Source: Candidatus Synechococcus calcipolaris G9 | GTDB lineage: Bacteria > Cyanobacteriota > Cyanobacteriia > Thermosynechococcales > Thermosynechococcaceae | Direction: 5' to 3' | Assembly (NCBI RefSeq): GCF_029582805.1 | Contig: NZ_JAKKUT010000008.1 | Span: forward strand, 1-64,000 | DNA length: 64,000 nucleotides | Part shown: piece by piece, positions 1 to 13,100 of the stretch | Numbering within the stretch: position 1 is the stretch's first letter | Layout: the number at the start of each line of letters is the position of its first letter | Notes under the pieces: model-generated | What the model was told of the DNA's origin: nothing | Database searches by the model: none | The model's input: the letters and a program-made list of their open reading frames with translations, nothing else | Position numbers and translations under genes: made by a program

Positions 1-2
1 AT

Positions 3-68
3 AGTGACTATCAATTCCTTGATCCTCTGATGCTAGAACAAATCCATGATCAGACCGTAAATGTGTAG
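3..68 (+). CDS. 3' end of an upstream gene (partial)
   Basis: The frame is open from the window edge to a TAG at 66-68 and encodes 21 residues ending ...IHDQTVNV. It lies 15 nt upstream of the next start and on the same strand, so it is probably the tail of a co-transcribed gene. Too little is visible to name it. It could also be a chance open frame. Confidence 0.3.
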   Translation, partial: SDYQFLDPLMLEQIHDQTVNV

Positions 69-83
69 GACTAGGAAACAGTA

Positions 84-326
84 ATGGCCACAGATGATCT
101 ATGTCAGAATTTAACCCTTCGCATTGGGGAACTGCTAGGGATGCTGCAAAGTTTGCAGTCTCGCATTACTAGCCTAGAAGAATGCGATCGCCGTCAGTAC
201 CAATTAATTGCCATTCTGGTAGCGGTAAATTTGGGATTAAATAACCCCCTGACTAATCAACTTTTTAACATTCAGGATGGCCCGGCGGCCCAGTGGGCCT
301 GTGAAGCCCAGGAGGATCAACGGTAA
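84..326 (+). CDS. small coiled-coil/membrane protein, possible holin-like partner of the downstream lysozyme
   Basis: Eighty residues. The first ~40 are heptad-like and predicted helical (LRIGELLGMLQSLQSRITSL), followed by a hydrophobic stretch at about residues 41-62 that could span a membrane once, then a short polar tail. The stop overlaps the next start (TAATG at 324-328), so the two genes are translationally coupled. A helical region plus one membrane segment immediately before a peptidoglycan hydrolase is the usual shape of phage XhlA- or holin-type lysis genes. That role is inferred from context and shape only; I recognise no family. Confidence 0.55.
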   Translation: MATDDLCQNLTLRIGELLGMLQSLQSRITSLEECDRRQYQLIAILVAVNLGLNNPLTNQLFNIQDGPAAQWACEAQEDQR

Positions 327-1294
327 TGATTAGTTTGCGGTTTCAACCAACACCGATCACTGACCACGGCCTGATCCGGTGGCATCTCTCCTTAATGAAT
401 GGAGATCGCCCAGTGGATCAAATCAATGCCTATAGCGGTTCACCCTATGCCCAGGCACTAAATACAGGGTCACGCGATTTTCCTGGTAGCTTGCGGCCTC
501 TCCCTCCTGGTCGCTGGAAAATTGGCCCGATTGAAGACGCGGGCGGAAGTTGGGGCGAAGGGATCGGGCGGTACTGGATTGATCTGCTACCCATGGCAGG
601 TACTCAAACCTATGGGCGATCAGCGTTTGGTATCCACCTAGACGCAAACCACCATCAACCTAGGGGCCGTGGTAGTGCTGGCTGTATTGTCACCCCTAGG
701 GAAGCCGATCTACAGCGGGTATTAGGTTGGCTACGGGCCAAGGCAAAACCTGAATTTCTGGTGTGTTCCCATTCAACAGCGATCGCCGCCGGACAAGTGG
801 CCTACAACATAACCGCAGTGCGGCGGGCCTGGCTGGATACGATCGCATGGGCAGAGGGAACCGACGGGCCTCATGGCTACCGTACAATTTTCAGTTATAA
901 ATTTTTCTCTGATTTCTCAGACCATCCACGGCAGATTCAAAAATCTGGCCCCTTGTCCAGCGATGCCGCTGGCCGGTATCAGTTTCTCTCAACAACATGG
1001 GATGAATGTAAACACGCCCTTGATCTCCCTGATTTTTCTCCGGCAAGTCAGGATCAAGCGGCTTTGTGGTTGATTGACAAGAAACGGCAAGCCTTAGAAT
1101 TTTGCGATCGCTTGATGATAGGGCCAGCGTTGGATCGGCTTTCCTATGAATGGGCCAGCTTACCGGCGGCCAGTGGTAGGGGGCGATACGGTCAACCGAT
1201 CAAGTCTGTTCCCCAAATTAGGGCAAAGTTGACGAAAATTTTACAATCAAGTGGTAATGGGCAATCATGCCATCCCCTCGCCCCTTTACCCTAG
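326..1294 (+). CDS. peptidoglycan-active fusion: L,D-transpeptidase-like domain + lambda-type lysozyme domain
   Basis: 322 residues in two parts. Residues ~30-150 carry an L,D-transpeptidase-like signature: H104-x-D, then S117-x-G119-C120 (IHLDANHH...GSAGCI), where Cys120 would be the nucleophile. Residues ~166-310 look like a phage lambda R / GH104-type lysozyme: a probable catalytic Glu177 in AWAEGTDG, an FSDFSDHPR segment, and SDAAGRYQF at 212-220. No signal peptide is visible, so export would need a holin-like partner such as the preceding gene, with which it overlaps by one base. It probably cuts or remodels the cell wall during phage, tailocin or injection-system release. Domain calls are from motifs; the combination is unusual. 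Confidence 0.7.
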   Translation: MISLRFQPTPITDHGLIRWHLSLMNGDRPVDQINAYSGSPYAQALNTGSRDFPGSLRPLPPGRWKIGPIEDAGGSWGEGIGRYWIDLLPMAGTQTYGRSAFGIHLDANHHQPRGRGSAGCIVTPREADLQRVLGWLRAKAKPEFLVCSHSTAIAAGQVAYNITAVRRAWLDTIAWAEGTDGPHGYRTIFSYKFFSDFSDHPRQIQKSGPLSSDAAGRYQFLSTTWDECKHALDLPDFSPASQDQAALWLIDKKRQALEFCDRLMIGPALDRLSYEWASLPAASGRGRYGQPIKSVPQIRAKLTKILQSSGNGQSCHPLAPLP

Positions 1295-1518
1295 AAAACC
1301 CGACAAAACTTGCAAGCTCGGTCTCTTTAGCCCCATGGTTCTAGAATTAATATAGTCACGTCAAGAAATGTAAAACTGTGCCATACCGTCTTTGAGTTTC
1401 ATTTTTGCCCAAGCCTTTGTATTAGAATAGGCTCAGCAGCCACTCACTGATCAGATCAAGGCAATACACCCTATTCATTTTTAATTTGTAGTCATTTTTA
1501 ATTTGGTTGAATTGGGCC

Positions 1519-1737
1519 ATGGGCGAATCAAAGCGACGGAAGGAAACCCTAGGGGAAAAGTATGGCCAGGATGAACCGATCCTCCCTTGGCTGCCGTTAA
1601 CCAAAAAGCAAGCGGCCCAGGCCCAAGGCATGGTGACCCGTGGTACTTGGTTTGGCATTGTTTTTTTAGTCCTGCTCTGGGTCACGGTTCGCTTCATTGG
1701 CCCTAGCTTAGGCTGGTGGCAGTTGAGTGGCAATTAA
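1519..1737 (+). CDS. DUF2839 family small membrane protein
   Basis: 72 residues beginning MGESKRRKETLGEKYGQ, the conserved start of DUF2839, a cyanobacteria-specific family. A polar N-terminus with a proline-rich LPWLP segment precedes one membrane span (about residues 44-64: WFGIVFLVLLWVTVRFIG) and a short WW-containing tail. The in-frame TTG at 1507 is less likely because the family starts at this ATG. Function is unknown. It stands alone between the lysozyme-like gene and mutS2. Confidence 0.85.
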   Translation: MGESKRRKETLGEKYGQDEPILPWLPLTKKQAAQAQGMVTRGTWFGIVFLVLLWVTVRFIGPSLGWWQLSGN

Positions 1738-1846
1738 CCCTAGAGCTAAGGCCAGAAAAAGGATTTAGGGATGCCTCTGTTGATAATGGGCTAAACCCTA
1801 ATAGCCCTAATATTGATTAACTTGATTCACCTATATTGATTAATTT

Positions 1847-4246
1847 GTGACGATTGGGAAATCTTTGGAACGCCTTGAATGGCCGCGCCTATGTGAGCAT
1901 TTAGCGACATTTGCGACGACAAAGCGGGCTGTTTTATCGCTGCAAGAGGGGGGTGACTTACCACAAACCCAGGCGGAAAGCCAGGTCTTATTGACCCAAA
2001 CCCAGGAGATTGTCTGCCTGGAAACGGAATTTTATACCCATCTCGACTTTAGTGGCATTGCGGATATAGATGCATCCCTGCATCGAGGGGAGCGGGGGGG
2101 AATTTTAACGGGGGAGGAACTGTTGGCGATCGCCCGCACCCTAGGGACGGCCCGCCATCTCCGTCGCCAAATTGCCAGTTATCCCGTCCTAGAGGCGTTA
2201 AATACTTTAGTTGACGGTCTACGTACCCACCCGGAACTGGAGCAGGAGATTCATCACTGTATTACGGATCAGGGCCAGGTCAGCGATCGCGCCAGTGATG
2301 TCCTCGCCCAACTGCGTCAACAGCAACGTCAGGTGCGCCAGCAGATTCAAGGGGCCTTGCAGCACATTATTCAACGCCGTAGTCAGGCCCTCCAGGATAA
2401 TGTGATCACCCAACGGGGCGATCGCTATGTTTTAGCGGTTAAGGCCCAACAAAAAGATGCGGTTCCCGGTCTGGTGCACGATAGTTCTGCCAGTGGGGCA
2501 ACCCTCTACATTGAACCCCAAAGCACTGTTGATCTGAATAATCGCCTCGGCCAGTTCATCCGCGAGGAAGATATTGAAGCCACCCGCATTCGCCAACAAC
2601 TCAGCCAATCCATTAGTGCGGTCTCCCCAGATATTTGGCATCTATTAACGGTTGTCACCGCCCTAGATAGGGCCACGGCCCGGGCCCGCTATAGTCTCTG
2701 GTTGGGGGGGCATCCACCCCGATTTAGTTCTGATCAGGAGCCTATTTGCCTGAGGTATCTGCGCCATCCCCTCTTGTTGTGGCAAGAGCAGCACGAACAG
2801 GGTCAGACCGTTGTTCCCATCGACCTGTTGATTGATCCGGCGATTCGGGTTGTCACCCTGACGGGGCCAAATACGGGGGGTAAAACGGCCACCCTAAAAG
2901 CCCTGGGCTTGGCGGCCCTCATGGCGAAGGCGGGGCTATTTATTCCTGCCAAGGAGCCGGTGGAACTGCCCTGGTTCCAAGGAATTTGGGCGGATATTGG
3001 TGATGAGCAATCCCTGGAGCAAAGTTTATCCACATTTTCCGGGCATATTCGCAGTATTTCCGACATTTTGGAGCAGTTGGAAGTCGGTTCCCAGCTAAAT
3101 TTAGTTCTGCTGGATGAGGTGGGAGCGGGGACGGATCCCAGTGAAGGGACAGCCTTGGCGATCGCCCTGTTGCGTTATCTGGCGGATCATGCCCATTTGA
3201 CCCTGGCAACCACCCACTTTGGGGAACTCAAGGCCCTGAAGTACCAAGACCCCCGGTTTGAAAATGCCTCCGTTGAATTTGATCAAGACACCCTTGGCCC
3301 CACCTATCGACTACTCTGGGGTATTCCTGGCCAATCCAATGCCCTCGCGATCGCCCGTCGTTTGGGCCTAAAACCAGAGATTATTGAAGCCGCTACCACT
3401 CGCTTAGACCCCGAGGGGGATCAGGTGAATCAAGTGATTGCCGGTCTAGTGAGTCAACGGCAACGACAAATGGCTAAGGCCGATGCGGCGGCCACGCTCC
3501 TAAGGGAGACAGAGGCCCTTCACCAAGAACTCATCCGCAAAGCCCAATATCTCCAAGAACGGGAACAGCGACTCCGCCAACAGCAGGAAACGGACGTGCG
3601 GACTAGTATTACCCAGGCCCAAGCGGAAATTGCCCAGGTGATTCGCACCCTGCAACAGGGGCCCCAAACCGCGGCCGCCGCAGAAGAAGCGCATCGGGCC
3701 CTAAGCCAAATTAGCGATCGGGCGATACCGCCACCCCCGTCCCCTGGATTTCAACCCCACGTGGGCGATCGGGTGCGTTTGCCCCAATGGCAGCAGACTG
3801 GCGAAATTATTGATCTAAATCAAAGCGGTGATTTAGTTGTGCGCCTCGGCCAACTCAAACTCACGGTTCCACCGACGGCGGTAGAATCCTTGAGCGGTGA
3901 AAAAGTAACGCCCCCTAATACCCCCAGTCCTAAAACCCCTAGAAAGCCAGCCCAGGCCCCATCGGCACTAACCTCTACCCCAACGTCCCAGGTTCCTTTA
4001 ATTCGCAGCGATCGCAAAACCCTAGATCTGCGGGGAAAACGGGTTCATGAAGCGGAAATGCTCCTAGATGAGGCCCTCAACCAAGCAACGGACATTCTCT
4101 GGATTATCCATGGCCACGGTACGGGCAAACTGCGAAATTTTGTCCAAGAGTTTTTGAAACATCATCCCAGTGTCCATCACTATCACTTTGGCGATCGCGA
4201 AGATGGGGGCAAAGGCGTAACGATCGCCCACGTCAGATTTAGCTAA
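1847..4246 (+). CDS. mutS2: endonuclease MutS2 (DNA / ribosome-collision factor)
   Basis: 799 residues, usual for MutS2, starting at GTG. Order: MutS-type core and clamp (~1-320), ATPase with Walker A GPNTGGKT at 340-347 and Walker B LVLLDEVGAG, a long coiled coil (~500-610), a KOW-like beta segment (VGDRVRLPQW...) near 640-675, and a C-terminal Smr nuclease domain with LDLRGKRVHEA and the HGHGTGKL loop. It lacks the mismatch-recognition N-terminus of MutS1. Family members suppress homologous recombination and, in Bacillus, split collided ribosomes; which role applies here is not shown. The gene is monocistronic in appearance. Confidence 0.96.
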   Translation: MTIGKSLERLEWPRLCEHLATFATTKRAVLSLQEGGDLPQTQAESQVLLTQTQEIVCLETEFYTHLDFSGIADIDASLHRGERGGILTGEELLAIARTLGTARHLRRQIASYPVLEALNTLVDGLRTHPELEQEIHHCITDQGQVSDRASDVLAQLRQQQRQVRQQIQGALQHIIQRRSQALQDNVITQRGDRYVLAVKAQQKDAVPGLVHDSSASGATLYIEPQSTVDLNNRLGQFIREEDIEATRIRQQLSQSISAVSPDIWHLLTVVTALDRATARARYSLWLGGHPPRFSSDQEPICLRYLRHPLLLWQEQHEQGQTVVPIDLLIDPAIRVVTLTGPNTGGKTATLKALGLAALMAKAGLFIPAKEPVELPWFQGIWADIGDEQSLEQSLSTFSGHIRSISDILEQLEVGSQLNLVLLDEVGAGTDPSEGTALAIALLRYLADHAHLTLATTHFGELKALKYQDPRFENASVEFDQDTLGPTYRLLWGIPGQSNALAIARRLGLKPEIIEAATTRLDPEGDQVNQVIAGLVSQRQRQMAKADAAATLLRETEALHQELIRKAQYLQEREQRLRQQQETDVRTSITQAQAEIAQVIRTLQQGPQTAAAAEEAHRALSQISDRAIPPPPSPGFQPHVGDRVRLPQWQQTGEIIDLNQSGDLVVRLGQLKLTVPPTAVESLSGEKVTPPNTPSPKTPRKPAQAPSALTSTPTSQVPLIRSDRKTLDLRGKRVHEAEMLLDEALNQATDILWIIHGHGTGKLRNFVQEFLKHHPSVHHYHFGDREDGGKGVTIAHVRFS

Positions 4247-4281
4247 CTTTCAACACTTCTGCCTTGCAGGGTAATTTCATA

Positions 4282-4485
4282 ATGAAAATTGCTTGGAGTG
4301 AATAGCTGTAACGACAATTTGTAGCTATACAATTACGGAGAGCAGCGTTTTGTCACATTCGGTTCTTGCGAGGGCGAGTTATTGCCGTTGTCCATGCGGA
4401 ACGAGAAGATTGCACCCGTATTATTTCTGTAAGAAAAGCGACAAAATATGAACAACGAGCCTACTTCGAGCAACTCTCAAACTGA
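4282..4485 (+). pseudogene. brnT: decayed brnT toxin gene
   Basis: Three pieces of a BrnT-type RNase toxin survive in order. ATG at 4282 encodes MKIAWSE, the family's start, followed at once by a stop. From 4334 a second frame reads YGEQRFVTFG. From 4363 a shifted frame reads FLRGRVIAVVHAERED...RIISVRKAT to a TGA at 4483-4485. So most of the N-terminal half is deleted and a one-base frameshift remains. The 3' end overlaps the brnA start by 38 nt, the normal brnTA arrangement. The toxin cannot be made; identification is from motif match by eye. Confidence 0.75.
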
Positions 4486-4726
4486 TTGGCAACGATTGGA
4501 TGCGATGAGCGAGGAAGATATTGATTTGTCGGATTGTCCAGAGATTACGCCGGAAATGTTTGCCAAGGCGGTAGTGCGTCGGGGCTTACCTGCTAAAAAA
4601 GCCAAGGCTCAAGTGACACTCCGCATTGATAGCGATGTATTGGAATGGTTTAAGTCCCAAGGGCGGGGCTATCAAACACAGATCAATCAATTGCTACGGG
4701 CGTATATGGAAGCACATCAGCAATAG
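4448..4726 (+). CDS. brnA: BrnA-type antitoxin (orphaned)
   Basis: 92 residues. The acidic N-terminus contains DLSDCPEITPEMFAKAVVR and the C-terminus a ribbon-helix-helix DNA-binding part (KAQVTLRIDSDVLEWFKSQGRGYQTQINQLLRAY, beginning near residue 53), both typical of BrnA. In the family BrnA neutralises the RNase toxin BrnT and represses the operon. Here the reading frame is intact while the overlapping toxin gene upstream is broken, so it is an antitoxin without its partner, possibly kept as a repressor or as protection against related mobile brnTA loci. Confidence 0.88.
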   Translation: MNNEPTSSNSQTDWQRLDAMSEEDIDLSDCPEITPEMFAKAVVRRGLPAKKAKAQVTLRIDSDVLEWFKSQGRGYQTQINQLLRAYMEAHQQ

Positions 4727-4954
4727 GTAGGTTGATGTTGTTGCACGAGAAACCGCGATCTCGATGGCTTAAAAACCCGTTTGCACCCGACCATCGATAG
4801 GTTGTCTACTGGGAACGAAAGTTCGTCTGTAGCGGGTGATTGGGAACGTTAGCATTTTCAGAGTGGTGAGTGTCAAATTCCAGTTGGAATTGACCAAAAT
4901 CGCTACAAGACACGCGATCGCCGCCAAAATACCTCAGGGGCTACACATCTAAAA

Positions 4955-5911
4955 TTAGCTGGCTAAATACTCATGAATATCACCCCGCCGTTTCCGCAGT
5001 TTTCCGAGGGCTTCCCGCTCAATCTGCCGCACCCGTTCCCGACTGATATTAAGTAAATCCCCCACTTTAGCCAGGGTGAGGGGCTGCCCATCCTCTAGGC
5101 CAAACCGCAGGGCTAACACCTGCCGCTGCTGGGTGGTGAGATCCGCCATGAGTCGATCTAAATCCGATCGCAGGGAAGATTGGGAGGTAAACTCTTCCGG
5201 GGACATGGAGGTGTCTTCTAGGAGTTCTCCCAGTTCCGTATCTTGGTTATCTCCCACCCGCACATCCAAGGATAGGGGTTGGCGGGCCCGTTCCAGGTAC
5301 TCCCGCACTTGGGCCGGTGTGAGTTCCAGTTCCTCAGCCAGTTCGCCGATCGTTGCCGATCGCCCCAGTTTTTGAGAAAGTTGGCGTTGGGCTTTTTTAA
5401 TTTTGTTGAGTTTTTCGGTAATGTGAATCGGTAAACGAATCGTCCGACCCTTCTCCGCGATCGCCCGTGTAATTGCTTGCCGAATCCACCAGTAGGCATA
5501 GGTGGAAAACCGATACCCCTTGGTCGGATCAAACTTTTCTACGCCCCGCTGCATGCCAATGGTGCCTTCTTGGATCAGGTCGAGGAGATCCACATTACGT
5601 TTAATATACTTTTTGGCCACGGAAACCACGAGGCGCAGATTGGCCTCCACCATTTTTCGCTTAGCGCGATCGCCGATTTCCAGTTGATCCTCCAGTTCCT
5701 CCGGCGTTAATTCCGCCGCCTGGGCCCATTCTGCTGTGCTGGGGGGGTGGCCCAGGGTTTCCTCAAGCTGCTGATATAGCTCATTGAGGGCCGCTAACTG
5801 CTGCACCTGCTTACCGAAGACAACTTCTTGTTCGTGGGTGAGGAGGGGGACGCGACCAATTTCCCGTAGGTAGGTACGTACTAAATCTTTTGAGGTGTCC
5901 ATGCTAGCCAT
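4955..5911 (-). CDS. RNA polymerase sigma factor, sigma-70 group 2 (SigB/SigD-like)
   Basis: 318 residues, without the long region 1.1 of the primary sigma. Region 1.2 begins [17 protein letters not shown]. Region 2 contains [16 protein letters not shown], the [18 protein letters not shown] core-binding segment and the [15 protein letters not shown] -10 recognition helix. Region 3 follows, and region 4 carries the helix-turn-helix [14 protein letters not shown] near the C-terminus. Group 2 sigma factors in cyanobacteria direct transcription under stress, dark or nutrient change. SigB and SigD cannot be separated with confidence by eye. Single gene, facing brnA convergently. Confidence 0.93.
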
Positions 5912-6231
5912 CGCTATTTTAGAGGTTTACAGCAAGGTGAATTTAACAATACAGGTAAGGGGTGACCAATGGGTGCAGAGGTGAACTTAAATTTAGCCAA
6001 AGTTGCCAAGGAATTTCTGGAAGATCGTGGTTGCAGCGGCCGGTTATGTGTCCTGTATATTAAGAATCTTAACATTTCTACATCATATTACTGGGAATCC
6101 TAACACTCATCGTCTAACTTCTTAATGTTTTCTTTATATTTCAAGCATAAATATTAACCAAGCCGCGGACGAAGAACGGGATTTAGGATAGGGTATACCT
6201 GATATTCTGTTGCTGCTGTAAGGCTTGTTAC
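5912..6231. other. intergenic region between divergent sigma factor and fumC
   Basis: 320 nt upstream of both genes, so it should hold both promoters; no strong -35/-10 pair stands out. One short open frame (5969-6103, 44 codons, with an AAGGGG-type ribosome site) is present on the plus strand. I do not recognise it and do not call it a gene. Confidence 0.4.
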
Positions 6232-7644
6232 ATGACAACCTCCTCCACACCTGCCCCTACCCCTGATCGTATTGAATATGACACCATGGGGCCGGTTGCA
6301 GTTCCCGGCGATCGCTACTGGGGGGCGCAAACCGCTCGATCCCTGAAATACTTTCCCATTGGTGGGTTACGAATGCCCCAGGAGATGATTTGGGGCCTGG
6401 CCATCCTCAAGCAGGCGGCGGCGATCGTCAACCGAGATCTGGGGAAGCTTTCTCCAGAGCAAGCAGCCTGGATTATTCAGGCCAGCCAAGAGGTGATTGA
6501 GGGGAAATGGACGGATCATTTTCCCTTGAGCATTTGGCAAACCGGCAGCGGCACCCAAACCAACATGAACGTGAACGAAGTGATTGCCAACCGAGCCAAC
6601 CAGCTAGCGGGCAGTGAACTGGGGAGTAAAAGCCCGATCCATCCCAATGATCACGTCAATTGTAGTCAATCCTCTAACGATACATTTCCCACTGCCATGC
6701 ATATTGCCGCCGTTGCCGGTCTGCACCATCGCCTTTTACCTACCCTACACCACCTCAACCAGACCCTAGGGGAAAAAATGAAGGCCTTTGCCGACATTAT
6801 TAAAATTGGCCGCACCCATCTGATGGATGCCGTTCCCCTCAGTCTCGGTCAAGAATTTTCCGGTTATCAGGCCCAAATCACCCAGAATATTGCCTGGATT
6901 GAGATGGCCTTACCCCCCCTATACGAATTAGCCATTGGCGGCACGGCGGTGGGAACAGGGCTAAATAGTCCCCCTCACTTTGGCGATCGCGTCGCCGCAG
7001 AAATCGCCCAACTAACGGGCTTTCCTTTTTGTTCAGCAAAAAATAAATTTGCCGCCCTAGCGGCCCACGATCCCCTGGTGATGATGAGTGGAGTCCTGAA
7101 AACCCTGGCCTGCGCCCTCATGAAAATGGCCAATGATATTCGCTGGTTAGCCTCGGGGCCTCGCTGTGGCTTGGGGGAGTTAATCTTACCCGCCAATGAA
7201 CCGGGGTCGTCGATTATGCCGGGCAAGGTAAATCCCACCCAATCCGAGAGCCTAACGATGGTCTGTGTTCAGGTGATGGGCCACGATGGGGCGATCGCCA
7301 TGGCCGGCTCCCAGGGCAATTTTGAGTTAAATGTGTTTAAGCCCCTGATCATCCATAACCTCCTCCGTTCCATTGAACTCCTCAGTGATGGCTGCCAAGC
7401 CTTTACCGACTATTGCCTGGTGGGGATTGAACCCAACCGTGAGCAGATTCAAACCTATTTAGATCGCTCCCTGATGCTTGTGACCGCCCTGAATCCCCAC
7501 ATTGGCTATGACAAAGCTGCCCAAGTCGCCAAAAAAGCCTACGAAGACGGAACCACCCTTAAGCAAGCCTGCCTGGATTTAGGGGTTTTGACCGCCGAGG
7601 AATTTGATCACTGGGTGCGGCCAGAAAAAATGCTATCCCCATAG
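6232..7644 (+). CDS. fumC: fumarate hydratase, class II
   Basis: 470 residues, matching the class II (iron-independent) family length. The fumarase/aspartase signature [11 protein letters not shown] is present near residue 325, along with the active-site segments [24 protein letters not shown] and [10 protein letters not shown]. It interconverts fumarate and malate in the TCA cycle and in recycling fumarate from purine and arginine synthesis. The N-terminal ~14 residues are a low-complexity Thr/Ser/Pro tail. gnd follows about 100 nt later on the same strand. Confidence 0.97.
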
Positions 7645-7749
7645 CAATAATTCTCGTCGGGGAGAGTTAAACTCTTCTTCCAAGGTTATGGGGGGCGATC
7701 GGGTTAAGGTGGGGGAGAAATATCCCACTGCATCGAAGCAGCCTCGCTT

Positions 7750-9189
7750 ATGTCACAGCAAGATTTTGGTCTAATTGGTTTAGCGGTCATGGGGGAAAAT
7801 CTCGCCCTCAATGTCGAGCGCAATGGCTTTTCCGTTGCCGTTTACAATCGCACCGCCTCAAAAACAGACGCTTTCATGGCCGAACGAGCCAGTGGGCGAA
7901 ACTTCAAAGCCACCTATACCCTGGAAGAACTGGTTAGCTCCCTAGAGCGGCCCCGCCGCATCCTCGCCATGGTCAAAGCCGGCCCACCGGTGGATGCCCT
8001 GATTGAACAACTTAAGCCCCTCCTAGAACCCGGTGATATTCTCATTGATGGCGGCAACTCCCTCTACACCGATACGGAAAGACGAGTCAAGGCAATGGAA
8101 GCCGACGGCCTCTGCTTTTTTGGCATGGGGGTCAGTGGCGGCGAAGAGGGTGCCCTCAATGGCCCCAGTCTTATGCCCGGTGGTAGCACCGATGCCTATC
8201 AAGCCCTAGAACCCATTCTCACCAAAATTGCCGCCCAGGTGGATGATGGCCCCTGTGTTACCTACATTGGCCCTGGCGGGGCAGGTCACTACGTCAAGAT
8301 GGTTCACAACGGCATTGAATATGGGGACATGCAACTGATTGCCGAAGCCTATGATTTACTCAAAACTGTTTTGGGGTTAAACCATGAGCAACTCCATCAG
8401 GTCTTTAGTCAGTGGAATACCACCCCAGAACTGAATTCCTTTTTAATTGAGATCACCAGTGAAATCTTTACCTATATTGATCCCGATACCAATCTGCCCC
8501 TAGTAGATGTGATTGTGGATGCGGCGGCCCAAAAGGGAACGGGGCGTTGGACCGTGGAAACGGCCCTAGAATTGGGTGTGAGTATTCCCACGATTACCGC
8601 TGCGGTGAATGCGCGGATCATGTCCTCCATTAAGGCAGAACGGGTGGCGGCGGCCGCTGCTTTGCCAGGGCCCACAGGTAAGTATGAAGGAGACACCCAA
8701 GAATTTATCAACAAGGTGCGGGATGCCCTCTACTGCTCGAAAATTTGCTCCTATGCCCAGGGTATGGCCCTCATTGGTAAGGCATCCCAGGAATTTTTTG
8801 GCGGTGCCCTTAATTTGGGCGAAATTGCCCGCATTTGGAAGGGGGGCTGTATTATCCGGGCGGGATTTTTAAACAAGATTAAAAAAGCCTACGATGAAAA
8901 CCCCACGCTGCCCAATCTTCTCTTGGCTCCTGAGTTTAAGCAAACGATTTTGGATAAGCAGGGGGCCTGGCGGGATGTTCTTATCGAAGCCACTCGTCTA
9001 GGCATTGCCTCGCCGGCCTTTGGGGCCTCCCTGGAATATTTTGATAGCTACCGCCGCGATCGCCTGCCCCAAAATCTCACCCAAGCCCAACGGGACTTCT
9101 TTGGGGCCCATACCTATGAACGCTTAGATAAGCCCGGTTCCTTCCATACGGAATGGGTGCCGATCCAGGAATCTACGGCGGAGTCCTAG
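7750..9189 (+). CDS. gnd: 6-phosphogluconate dehydrogenase (decarboxylating)
   Basis: 479 residues. N-terminal Rossmann fold (GLAVMGENLALNVERNG, then NRT for NADP), DGGNS, the substrate segment GVSGGEEGALNGPSLMPGG and MVHNGIEYGDMQLIAEAY with the catalytic Lys-x2-His-Asn arrangement. It oxidises 6-phosphogluconate to ribulose-5-phosphate, CO2 and NADPH in the oxidative pentose phosphate pathway, the main reductant source in the dark. The next gene, a probable ribulose kinase, starts 21 nt downstream and feeds the same product pool. Confidence 0.97.
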   Translation: MSQQDFGLIGLAVMGENLALNVERNGFSVAVYNRTASKTDAFMAERASGRNFKATYTLEELVSSLERPRRILAMVKAGPPVDALIEQLKPLLEPGDILIDGGNSLYTDTERRVKAMEADGLCFFGMGVSGGEEGALNGPSLMPGGSTDAYQALEPILTKIAAQVDDGPCVTYIGPGGAGHYVKMVHNGIEYGDMQLIAEAYDLLKTVLGLNHEQLHQVFSQWNTTPELNSFLIEITSEIFTYIDPDTNLPLVDVIVDAAAQKGTGRWTVETALELGVSIPTITAAVNARIMSSIKAERVAAAAALPGPTGKYEGDTQEFINKVRDALYCSKICSYAQGMALIGKASQEFFGGALNLGEIARIWKGGCIIRAGFLNKIKKAYDENPTLPNLLLAPEFKQTILDKQGAWRDVLIEATRLGIASPAFGASLEYFDSYRRDRLPQNLTQAQRDFFGAHTYERLDKPGSFHTEWVPIQESTAES

Positions 9190-9210
9190 CCCCTAGGGAG
9201 GGTTGGAGTC

Positions 9211-10572
9211 TTGGCACACCCCCAGACATCATCGCCTGAATCTTCATCGCCTGAATTCTCATCGGGGTCGTCCCCTTATTTTCTGGGCTTAGATTTTGGT
9301 ACCTCCGGGGTCCGTAGTGTGGTGATTGATGCCGCTGGGGTGGCGATCGCCACCCAGGAAATCCGTTGGCCAATTGTTCCCCTGTCCGACTATCCTGCTC
9401 TCTGGCAAGACACCCTGTGGCAGTTAATTTTAGGGATTCCCGAAAACCTGCGATCGCAGTTGGGCCGCATTGCTATTGATGGCACCTCAGGCACGGTGTT
9501 ATTCTGTGATGCCCAGGGACAGCCCCAGGTAGAACCCCTGCTATACAACGACGATCGCCCTCGGGACTGTTTACCCCAGTTGGGGGCGATCGCCCCGGCG
9601 AATCATGTGGTTCTAAGTGCCACCTCCAGCCTGGCAAAGTTACTGTGGTGGCGATCGCAGCAGGATCATGCTGGGCGATCAAGGGTGAAATACCTGCTCC
9701 ATCAAGCCGATTGGCTGGGCTTTTTACTCCATGGTCAACTGGGGATCAGTGACTATCACAATTGCCTAAAACTGGGTTACGACCCTACCACCCTCAGCTA
9801 TCCTGACTGGTTTGATCACCCCGACCTAGTAGACCTTAAACCCCTACTTCCCCAGGGGGTCACTCCGGGCCAGGCGATCGCCCCCATTGCACCCCCCCCT
9901 ATTGCCCCATCCCGATTCCTCGGCCTACCCAAGGACTGTCAAATCTGTGCCGGAACCACCGATAGTATTGCCGCATTTTTGGCCAGTGGCGTGAGTCAAC
10001 CGGGGCAAGGGGTTACATCCTTGGGATCAACCCTGGTTCTAAAACTCCTGAGTCGTTATCCCGTGGGCGATCGGGCGGCGGGTATTTATAGCCATCGTCT
10101 TGGGGATTACTGGCTGGTGGGTGGGGCATCTAACTGTGGCGGTGCCATTCTCCGAAAATTTTTTACTGATCAGGAAATAAATGACCTCAGTCAACGGATC
10201 AACCCTCACCAGTCTACCCAGTTGGATTATTATCCGCTCTTAGCACCTGGGGAGCGGTTTCCCATCAATGATCCTGATTACCAGCCCCGTTTAGACCCCC
10301 GCCCTGAAGATGACACTCTGTTTTTACAGGGACTCCTGGAAAGTTTGGCCCGGATCGAGGCGGAGGGGTATCACCGCTTGGCCCAATTAGGGGCATCTCC
10401 CCTGATCGAGGTGTATACCGCTGGGGGCGGCGCAAAAAATGAAACTTGGCAACAGATTCGCCAGGCTTACCTCCAGGTTCCGGTGCAGAGATCGCCCCAT
10501 CCAGAAGCAGCCTATGGAGCAGCCCGATTGGCTCAACGGGGATTATCGTTTCTCCAAAAAAACTATGTATGA
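9211..10572 (+). CDS. FGGY-family sugar kinase, probable D-ribulose kinase
   Basis: 453 residues. N-terminal FGGY phosphate-binding segment GLDFGTSGVRSVVIDAAG, a second domain with GTTDSIAAFLASG and SLGSTLVLKLLS, and the adenosine loop YTAGGGAKNETW. It resembles the short cyanobacterial/plant group (Arabidopsis XK1, Synechococcus SePSK) reported to phosphorylate D-ribulose, rather than bacterial xylulokinases. The TTG start at 9211 is chosen because an AGGGAGGG ribosome site precedes it and no ATG lies near. Placement after gnd supports a product of ribulose-5-phosphate. The exact substrate is inferred. Confidence 0.85.
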   Translation: MAHPQTSSPESSSPEFSSGSSPYFLGLDFGTSGVRSVVIDAAGVAIATQEIRWPIVPLSDYPALWQDTLWQLILGIPENLRSQLGRIAIDGTSGTVLFCDAQGQPQVEPLLYNDDRPRDCLPQLGAIAPANHVVLSATSSLAKLLWWRSQQDHAGRSRVKYLLHQADWLGFLLHGQLGISDYHNCLKLGYDPTTLSYPDWFDHPDLVDLKPLLPQGVTPGQAIAPIAPPPIAPSRFLGLPKDCQICAGTTDSIAAFLASGVSQPGQGVTSLGSTLVLKLLSRYPVGDRAAGIYSHRLGDYWLVGGASNCGGAILRKFFTDQEINDLSQRINPHQSTQLDYYPLLAPGERFPINDPDYQPRLDPRPEDDTLFLQGLLESLARIEAEGYHRLAQLGASPLIEVYTAGGGAKNETWQQIRQAYLQVPVQRSPHPEAAYGAARLAQRGLSFLQKNYV

Positions 10573-10619
10573 TGGGGTATAAGCAATTTTTAGATTTTTT
10601 TAATTTGTGACCTGTGATT

Positions 10620-10910
10620 ATGCCTACCACCCTTCCCCAAGAACGGCAATCCCAGACCATTGAACGTAAGCCCTACCCCAACTATAAGGTGATTGTCCTC
10701 AACGATGATTTCAATACCTTTCAACACGTTGCCGCCTGCCTAATGAAATATATCCCCAATATGAGTCAGGAACGGGCCTGGGAATTGACGAACGAAGTCC
10801 ACTATCAAGGGTTGGCGATCGTTTGGGTGGGGCCCCAAGAGCAGGCGGAACTTTACCACATGCAACTTCAGCGGGCGGGCCTGACCATGGCCCCCATCGA
10901 ACCTGAATAG
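10620..10910 (+). CDS. clpS: ATP-dependent Clp protease adaptor ClpS
   Basis: 96 residues with the ClpS core YKVIVLNDDFNTFQHV, helix ERAWELTNEVHYQG, and WVGPQEQAELYHMQL. NDD and the following Phe form the N-degron pocket in the family. It delivers proteins with destabilising N-termini to ClpCP. A GTG at 10614 two codons upstream is an alternative start. The gene faces glyS convergently with 24 nt between stops. Confidence 0.95.
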   Translation: MPTTLPQERQSQTIERKPYPNYKVIVLNDDFNTFQHVAACLMKYIPNMSQERAWELTNEVHYQGLAIVWVGPQEQAELYHMQLQRAGLTMAPIEPE

Positions 10911-10934
10911 CAGCTATTTCTATTTGACGAGTTG

Positions 10935-13100
10935 CTATTTAACGATTTCGCCAAAGTCCCCTAGCACCCCGCCAATATTTCGCAACAGGGAGAGTAACCC
11001 TAGGCGATTGGCTTTAATCACTGGATCTGGGGCCATGACTAAGACACTTTCGGGGCCATCAAAGAAGCGGCTGACAATGGGAGCGAGGGCCCCTAAAACC
11101 GCAATAATCTGCCCATAATCTCCCTGATCTTGGGCGGTTTTCACCGTTGGTAAGGTGTCTTGAAGAGCTTGGTAAAACTCCCGTTCAATGGGTTCCTGAA
11201 GCTTGTCGATCGCAATGCCCTCTAAACTTAGGGTGTGGCGTTCCACCGTTCCTTGCCGCGCTAACCGAGCCGCCCGATTCACCGTGGCATAGATGGGTTG
11301 GAGGCTGCCCTCTTGACGCATTCGTTGTAAAAACTGGGCGCGATCGCGGGCATCTAGGACATCCCCTAGGACTTGGGCGGTTGCCGAAGCATCGCTATTT
11401 CCGAGGACGGCATTCACCAGATCGTAGTCAATTGGGTGGGTGGGGTCTTCCTCTAGGAGTGTCCGCAGGCGTTGACCGAAAAAGTCCTGAAGCTGATCTT
11501 GGAGTTGGCTGGGGTTCGCGGTCTTTGGGTAGGTTTGGCAAAAGTGCTGACTGGTTTCCTGGAGCACCTGATGCAGATTCAGGGGTAAACGGGCTTCCCA
11601 GAGAATTAAAAGGACGGCATTGGCGGCCCGCCGCAAGGCAAAGGGATCGGAAGAGCCAGTGGGAATTTGACCTAAACCAAATAGACAGGTCAGGGTATCC
11701 AGGCGATCGGCTAGGCCCACCACCTGACCCGTGAGACTTTCGGGGAGGCGATCGCCCCCATGGCGGGGTAAGTAATGGTCAAAAATTCCCTGGGAGACGG
11801 CGGCCGACTCGCCACTTTTTTCAGCATAGACTTGGCCCATTCGCCCCTGAAGCTCTGGAAATTCCCCTACCATTTGGCTGACGAGATCATTTTTGCACAG
11901 CTCGGCCGTGCGTTGAATCTCATTTTTCTGCTTGGGTTTGAGTTTCAGGTGATCGGCGATCGCCCCAGCTAGGGCTTGAATCCGCGCCATCTTTGCGGCC
12001 ATGGATCCCAATTCATCCTGGAATGTAACCGTTTCTAGTTTAGTGCCGTAGTCGGCTAGGGGCTTAGCCAGATCTGCCTGGTAGAAAAACTGGCCATCGG
12101 CTAACCGGGCCCGAATCACCCGCTCGTTTCCCTGGCGAATGATGTCAGCGGCCTGGGGATCCCCATTGCTAATGGTAATAAAGTGGGGTAGCAGCTTCGT
12201 GTGGGCGCGATCGCCATAGACAGGAAAATATCGCTGGTGGGTCACCATCACCGTGGTAATCACCTCTGGGGGTAAGGCTAAAAATTCCGGCTCAAAATTG
12301 CCTAGGACGGCGGTGGGCCATTCCACTAAATGGGTGACTTCGTTGAGGAGGGTCTCGGTGATGTCCGTGTAACCCTTCACCGTGTTTGCCCGATCATTCA
12401 CCTGGTCAATAATTTTTGCTTTCCGTTCCTCAGGATCAACCTCAATGTACCCCTGGGCCATAGTCTCCCCATAGTCTTGGGCCCGCTCTAGGGTGATGGG
12501 ATCGGCGGCTAACACCCGGTGGCCCCAGGTCTGGCGATCGCTGGTGATTTTTACCGACTGACTTTCTAAGGTCACGGGTAAGACCTGATCATCCCAGAGA
12601 GCTACCAGCCAGCGAATGGGTCGGGAAAAACGCAGTTCTCCATCACTCCAACGCATAAATCGCGGCCCCTCTAGTTGGCTAATCCAGTTGGGAATCCATT
12701 CTGATAATAGGGTTGGCGTGGCCTGGCCCCTCAGGGTTTGCTTCAGAAAAACCACATCCCCCTTTTCTGTACTCCGAATCTCTATATCCTCTAGGACGGC
12801 CTGGCGCGATCGCAAAAACCCCTGTAATGCCTTTGTTGGCTCTCCGTTCTTAAAGGCAATAGCCGCTGCGGGGCCCTTCACCTCACTGTGTTGGTCGGGT
12901 TGTTGCGCTGGTAAGCCGTCTAAAACCAGCACCAATCGCCGTGGCGTACCCAAAACATTGACCGTTGCCCCCAATCCGTGATCCTGTAAATGGGCAGGAA
13001 TCATCCGCTGCCACTGGGCGATCGCTGATTGGACAAAACTAGCGGGTAAATCTTCCGTTCCCACTTCTAGAAGAAAACTATGTTGGCTTGAGTCAGTCAT
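10935..13100 (-). CDS. glyS: glycyl-tRNA synthetase beta subunit
   Basis: 721 residues, the normal length for the beta chain of the tetrameric alpha2beta2 bacterial enzyme. It begins SFLLEVGTEDLPASFV, typical of the family, and contains VMVTHQRYFPVYG and the HD-like QMVGEFPELQGRMGQVYA segment near the middle; the C-terminal ~150 residues form the anticodon-binding part. The catalytic alpha subunit (glyQ) is not in this window. The start ATG at 13100 lies about 200 nt before the tRNA-Thr gene on the other strand. Confidence 0.97.
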   Translation of the reverse strand: MTDSSQHSFLLEVGTEDLPASFVQSAIAQWQRMIPAHLQDHGLGATVNVLGTPRRLVLVLDGLPAQQPDQHSEVKGPAAAIAFKNGEPTKALQGFLRSRQAVLEDIEIRSTEKGDVVFLKQTLRGQATPTLLSEWIPNWISQLEGPRFMRWSDGELRFSRPIRWLVALWDDQVLPVTLESQSVKITSDRQTWGHRVLAADPITLERAQDYGETMAQGYIEVDPEERKAKIIDQVNDRANTVKGYTDITETLLNEVTHLVEWPTAVLGNFEPEFLALPPEVITTVMVTHQRYFPVYGDRAHTKLLPHFITISNGDPQAADIIRQGNERVIRARLADGQFFYQADLAKPLADYGTKLETVTFQDELGSMAAKMARIQALAGAIADHLKLKPKQKNEIQRTAELCKNDLVSQMVGEFPELQGRMGQVYAEKSGESAAVSQGIFDHYLPRHGGDRLPESLTGQVVGLADRLDTLTCLFGLGQIPTGSSDPFALRRAANAVLLILWEARLPLNLHQVLQETSQHFCQTYPKTANPSQLQDQLQDFFGQRLRTLLEEDPTHPIDYDLVNAVLGNSDASATAQVLGDVLDARDRAQFLQRMRQEGSLQPIYATVNRAARLARQGTVERHTLSLEGIAIDKLQEPIEREFYQALQDTLPTVKTAQDQGDYGQIIAVLGALAPIVSRFFDGPESVLVMAPDPVIKANRLGLLSLLRNIGGVLGDFGEIVK

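Follow-up and report, generated by a model that had tools for sequence, protein, structure and literature searches.

A brnTA toxin-antitoxin module with a broken toxin gene and an intact antitoxin gene in Candidatus Synechococcus calcipolaris G9

Anatomy of the decayed module

The window analysed here, a 64,000-nucleotide stretch of Candidatus Synechococcus calcipolaris G9 (contig NZ_JAKKUT010000008.1, positions 1 to 64,000), carries a brnTA toxin-antitoxin module in which brnT is broken and brnA is whole (Table 1). The module sits between mutS2, which ends at 4246, and a convergent sigma factor gene (4955-5911), both read by eye. The brnA gene is an uninterrupted frame of 92 codons whose product scores well above the cut-off of the BrnA_antitoxin profile and is identified by it as BrnA. 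No working cognate toxin adjoins this frame, which makes it an orphan (solo) antitoxin. The genes follow the order brnT then brnA and overlap, with the stop codon of the brnT remnant falling 35 bases inside brnA, as it does in relatives. The original prediction, made from the sequence alone, had described a decayed brnTA module that had lost its toxin, with an intact and cleanly open brnA overlapping brnT, and it holds on each of these points. A search of solved structures with the window BrnA returned no convincing relative by sequence (best E 0.049); the BrnT of an intact relative, L077, matches the solved structures 7vd7 and 3u97.

Comparison with intact brnT genes, which had been proposed alongside the original prediction, mapped a deletion and a one-base frameshift in the toxin gene. 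Relative to L077, approximately 146 bases (counted by hand) are absent, comprising the true start, codons 1-39 and the K-H-G motif; a TACAAT sequence marks both ends of the deletion, near one end in intact leaders and at the other at 4328-4333. The frameshift, near 4365, divides the remaining brnT. From 4328, a middle piece matches BrnT residues 40-58, and the frame of 4366-4485 matches residues 47-91 at 80% (tblastn), with a gap in alignment A1. Residues 5-34 of the frame at 4351-4464 correspond to PF04365 positions 48-77 with 33.9 bits, just below the cut-off of 34.5, and the remnant, spread over two frames, is not a complete single-frame BrnT. The C-terminal part and the middle piece in another frame are thus both present as predicted, whereas the count of three pieces, start included, has to be reduced: read by translation, brnT survives as two pieces, each in its own frame, preceded by a leader, the supposed third piece being leader DNA. 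The K-H-G motif occurs in all 49 intact modules tested and is absent from the window remnant in all three frames; we take this motif to be the Lys-His pair associated with RNase activity. That pair is reported to be necessary for RNase activity (PMC10714953).

The stretch at 4282-4302, which reads MKIAWSE and had been predicted to be the BrnT start, was rejected as such, since it matches the non-coding leader of intact modules. When window 4181-4460 was compared locally with 49 intact modules, counting leader-only matches at E 0.01 or better, window 4263-4336 matched the leader of 33 modules, between roughly -96 and -19 relative to the brnT start codon, and 13 of these 33 matches cover 4282-4302 completely. 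The highest identity, 86.8% along 53 bases, is with L077 (window 4282-4334 aligned to -75 to -25), and leader homology is also found with L011 and L012. A global MAFFT alignment had set this stretch on brnT coding DNA, a misplacement that arises because the window lacks the intervening DNA, and the local matches are to be preferred. Given this homology, MKIAWSE is a chance reading of leader DNA, and it shares its frame with the C-terminal brnT piece by coincidence.

The module resembles the BrnT/BrnA family (PF04365/PF14384), including Brucella abortus BrnTA, in its toxin-then-antitoxin order, in the overlap of its genes, in a BrnA that belongs to PF14384 and in a remnant that is PF04365-like. 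Unlike in that family, the toxin gene of the window has lost the start along with codons 1-39 and the Lys-His motif, and it is frameshifted, so that only the antitoxin is left.

Table 1. Features of the brnTA module, with coordinates given as positions of the window.
Feature	Coordinates	Strand	Evidence
Retained brnTA leader, formerly non-coding DNA 5' of brnT, with a chance ATG inside	4263..4327	+	Leader matches
Leader element, candidate promoter/operator, 2 extra bases at the junction	4305..4333	+	Shared consensus of intact modules
Deletion junction, leader fused to brnT codon 40	4327..4328	+	L077 leader and codons; tblastn match beginning at residue 40
brnT remnant in one frame, from codon 40 to about codon 51	4328..4365	+	tblastn residues 40-58 at 63%; three-frame translation
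brnT remnant in the other frame, from about codon 53 to codon 91 and the stop, overlaps brnA	4366..4485	+	PF04365; tblastn
brnA antitoxin, intact, 92 aa	4448..4726	+	PF14384 73.1 bits (profile search; cut-off 26.1); 80-95% identity to BrnA of six other genomes

Leader element and genomic setting

The intact modules share a leader element with the consensus GCTGTAACGACAATTTGTAnyTACAAT. Its 25-base core is present with 4 or fewer mismatches in 46 of the 51 intact modules (those with 300 or more bases upstream), and 79 base-shuffled upstream regions used as a control never gave better than 6 mismatches. Twelve of 28 toxin-broken loci, the window included, retain the core with 3 or fewer mismatches. 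In the window, a 24-base form of the element lies at 4307-4330 with 2 mismatches; elsewhere in the window's genome it was found nowhere at 2 or fewer mismatches and at one site with 3, and a reversed control of the same search returned 0 sites. A wider BrnA regulon was rejected, given that the element at 2 or fewer mismatches occurs only at the module in this genome.

BrnA has been described as an RHH antitoxin that controls brnTA (PMC11980606), and for Brucella abortus BrnA, binding to its own promoter has been reported (PMC10714953); we regard the leader element as a candidate BrnA operator or promoter. Because this element survives upstream, BrnA is probably still expressed in the window's genome. 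Against this, a consensus scan of 4200-5000 found no sigma-70-like promoter, and the junction has altered the element itself by 2 bases. A terminator scan of 4200-5000 also found none.

The mutS2 neighbourhood was rejected as the ancestral site of the module: a mutS2 match was obtained in 39 relatives, and none of the 29 mutS2 loci fetched (two of which, L060 and L067, are short pieces) matched a brnTA module or the sigma gene. The DNA downstream of brnA is single copy in its genome, structure in 4727-4954 does not go beyond that of shuffles (z -0.45), and a tRNA search of window 1-12000 returned none. A stretch of 72 bases located 3' of brnA (4782-4853) matches, at 75%, DNA located 5' of a different brnA (L038:964-1034, in G031). 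The same genome holds three further intact BrnT (C2:1235966, 1585253 and 1733959), and behind each of them lies a further small open frame that appears, by eye, to be its own antitoxin. At G000 C2:72524-72637, a sequence interrupted by a stop matches the BrnT profile weakly (32.3 bits) and is perhaps another remnant.

Among mobile elements, a Chroococcidiopsis plasmid carries both genes of the subfamily (BrnA 91%, BrnT 88%), and of the 849 plasmid records that match BrnT, it alone exceeds 60% identity. None of 8 phage records with such a match exceeds 60% identity, and 18 pattern matches in viral contigs yielded 0 confirmed cases.

Toxin and antitoxin losses among cyanobacterial relatives

The brnTA subfamily is widespread in cyanobacteria, and four of the six other genomes with the BrnA identities listed in Table 1 come from other families. 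From a scan of named genomes with BrnA, the best 80 of 132 relatives were retained (78-98% identity). Among these best 80 of 132, brnT was intact in 51 and not intact in 28, L109 and L115 among the latter being without only the usual brnT start codon, and L121 was left unjudged at a contig edge; brnA was full length in all of them except L147.

A scan with BrnA selects for brnA, and we therefore made a symmetric census in which the same 291 genomes were searched with BrnT and with BrnA. The 53 census loci, which overlap in records with those of the named genomes, are the listed matches of about 60% identity or more together with L187 at 55%; the matches listed end at weak ones on both sides, short remnants being missed alike with BrnT and with BrnA. 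Fifty-two of the 53 loci were judged, L169 lying at a contig edge. Both genes were in frame in 28 of the 52, a class that takes in L177, which carries an in-frame insertion, as well as L185 and L186, where BrnT is one codon shorter. In 14 loci brnT was broken and brnA whole, in none was brnA broken and brnT whole (or in 1, should L193 be placed here), and in 10, L193 included, both genes were damaged. A sign test on this contrast, for loci that are not fully independent, gives approximately 1e-4 for 14 to 0 and 1e-3 for 14 to 1. At L193 (G265 C1:3684123-3684362), BrnT codons 1-79 of 91 are open from the start and followed by a stop, and no brnA was found; the locus could be a toxin without antitoxin, which would count against a toxin-first order. 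The toxin would be lost before the antitoxin because of addiction, the reverse order being not easily survived. Loss of the toxin with retention of the antitoxin is a recurrent event in related bacteria, of which the window looks like an ordinary case.

Several other damaged loci were recorded. A same-family genome holds a separate fossil (L018 / L199, G018 C1:1741471) in which a deletion has fused the front of brnT to mid-brnA and the leader is kept. In L188 and L189 (G217 and G151), brnA is split at codon 45/46 and brnT is recognisable only from codon 54; this damage appears common to both, and the decayed module was perhaps inherited in common. In L171, L116, L129 and L112, an otherwise open brnT is interrupted by a stop as early as codon 3, 4 or 5, a cluster for which chance and downstream restart are both possible, and L109 and L115 carry ATC in place of their relatives' ATG in a brnT that is otherwise open.

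Orphan antitoxins are reported to be abundant in Klebsiella (PMC7192599), and both orphan antitoxins and orphan toxins are reported to be abundant in E. coli (PMC10790755). As in the cases these sources describe, the window holds an antitoxin frame in a former toxin context with a toxin that does not work; it differs from those orphans as described in having a mapped lesion and intact relatives of its module, and in that the asymmetry was counted within a single subfamily across cyanobacteria. None of the papers found in a literature search on cyanobacteria names such decay in its title.

Persistence of brnA after toxin loss

Compared with its nearest intact copy (L076), the window brnA shows 14 synonymous and 3 non-synonymous differences from codon 13 onward, and codons 55-79 of the window brnT show 5 synonymous and 2 non-synonymous differences. 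The dead brnT has thus barely drifted, and the loss of the toxin therefore looks recent; it follows that the window cannot show why brnA stays, and its brnA may have had no time to decay. No sister locus with the window's own lesion was seen among the compared loci. Of the interpretation first offered for the locus, the part that had the antitoxin outliving its toxin is supported; its other part, an anti-addiction or regulatory use, receives no positive support from the window, where the remnant is fresh.

Pooled over nearest neighbours, brnA pN/pS is 0.154 in 33 toxin-broken loci versus 0.116 in 60 intact ones, and the corresponding values for brnT codons 55-79 are 0.277 (21 alignable loci of the 33 toxin-broken) and 0.215 for intact loci; these pooled figures are weak either way because the pairs overlap and much of the divergence within each is older than the loss. 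L177, L121 and 2 of the 97 distinct loci, with brnA outside 85-100 codons, were left out of this count. In a few toxin-broken loci brnA looks relaxed, for example in L111, with 7.5 non-synonymous and 1.5 synonymous differences.

A Microcoleus-type genus, in which brnA occurs in 12 of 29 genomes, offers pairs of loci that share a brnT lesion, one lesion in L202 and L205 and another in L208 and L212. Within these pairs, few as they are and with recombination with intact copies as a possible confounder, brnA codons 13-91 accumulated 20 synonymous and 11 non-synonymous differences, compared with a neutral expectation of approximately 73% non-synonymous at a transition bias of 3 (P ~2e-5 for both pairs together; P 0.0001 to 0.01 for each pair alone, depending on the assumed transition bias). 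This result suggests that brnA is still constrained after toxin loss in the two pairs and, against the reading of brnA as a leftover, that a solo brnA can be more than that. The brnA of L212 is altered at Ser28 and Pro48, positions invariant in alignment A2, which is a sign of relaxation, and two further loci of this genus, L211 and L213, have a broken brnA too. Across L202-L213 (genus of G142), the module is found intact, with a single nonsense codon, with various deletions or replacements, or with brnA broken too, and several of these seem to sit at one shared locus.

We consider it very likely that the window holds a brnTA cassette whose toxin was disabled by a deletion reaching from the leader to codon 39 together with a frameshift, and whose brnA is most likely a recent leftover. 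The cassette belongs to a subfamily scattered through cyanobacteria, presumably by horizontal spread; a cell can dispense with the toxin as long as it makes the antitoxin, and the reverse would not easily occur. BrnA would still fold, bind its own leader and neutralise a cognate BrnT. That brnT is in reality intact and only appears broken through sequencing or assembly error is extremely improbable: the one-base frameshift could be such an error, but about 146 bases with the start and 39 codons are absent, more than a single-base error accounts for, and resequencing one base cannot restore the toxin because about 39 codons are missing from the assembly. It is likewise very unlikely that BrnA keeps one of the genome's three further intact BrnT in check, given that each of them is followed by what looks like its own antitoxin and that the two such frames matched by the BrnA query are only 44-48% identical to the window BrnA, one of them over half its length.

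A use for the solo antitoxin could be sought in anti-addiction, described in PMC7354431 as a demonstrated role of chromosomal CcdA and a proposed one of orphans: BrnA would be kept to neutralise BrnT arriving on plasmids or other mobile copies of the subfamily, making their loss harmless for the host. As with the Erwinia chrysanthemi chromosomal CcdA of that source, the antitoxin could neutralise the toxin of an incoming relative; unlike for CcdA, neutralisation is for the window BrnA a proposed use only. The close copies in several cyanobacterial families, the Chroococcidiopsis plasmid with both genes and the constraint on brnA in the two lesion pairs all speak for this explanation. Against it stand the window's own toxin loss, too recent for a test of selection, the single plasmid record above 60% identity with no phage at that level and no viral contig confirmed, the signs of relaxation in L212 and L111, and recombination with intact copies, which could also produce the constraint; on balance, it is possible but doubtful. 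Reuse of BrnA as a DNA-binding regulator of other genes would agree with the promoter binding reported for Brucella abortus BrnA (PMC10714953) and with the leader element retained in the window, but it is unlikely, as the element at 2 or fewer mismatches occurs only at the module in the window's genome, and brnA is whole in L202/L205 though the DNA upstream is no longer leader-like (11 mismatches in L131 and L139, which are the same loci). A broader proposal, that the subfamily is a source of solo antitoxins in which the toxin is repeatedly lost and brnA is actively kept as immunity against mobile brnTA, with the window as a young example, we hold to be rather improbable; as far as the compared sequences go, selective retention of brnA finds some support elsewhere in the subfamily and is not shown for the window.

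The window thus presents a real, ordinary toxin-first decay of a type II module, and the general pattern is modestly interesting. Orphan antitoxins are reported to be common and their use is unsettled. In the subfamily described here, losses both young and older are available, their lesions are mapped and intact relatives are close, which makes it testable whether a solo antitoxin is selected or merely dies later than its toxin, the window itself being one ordinary, probably recent, instance of toxin-first decay.
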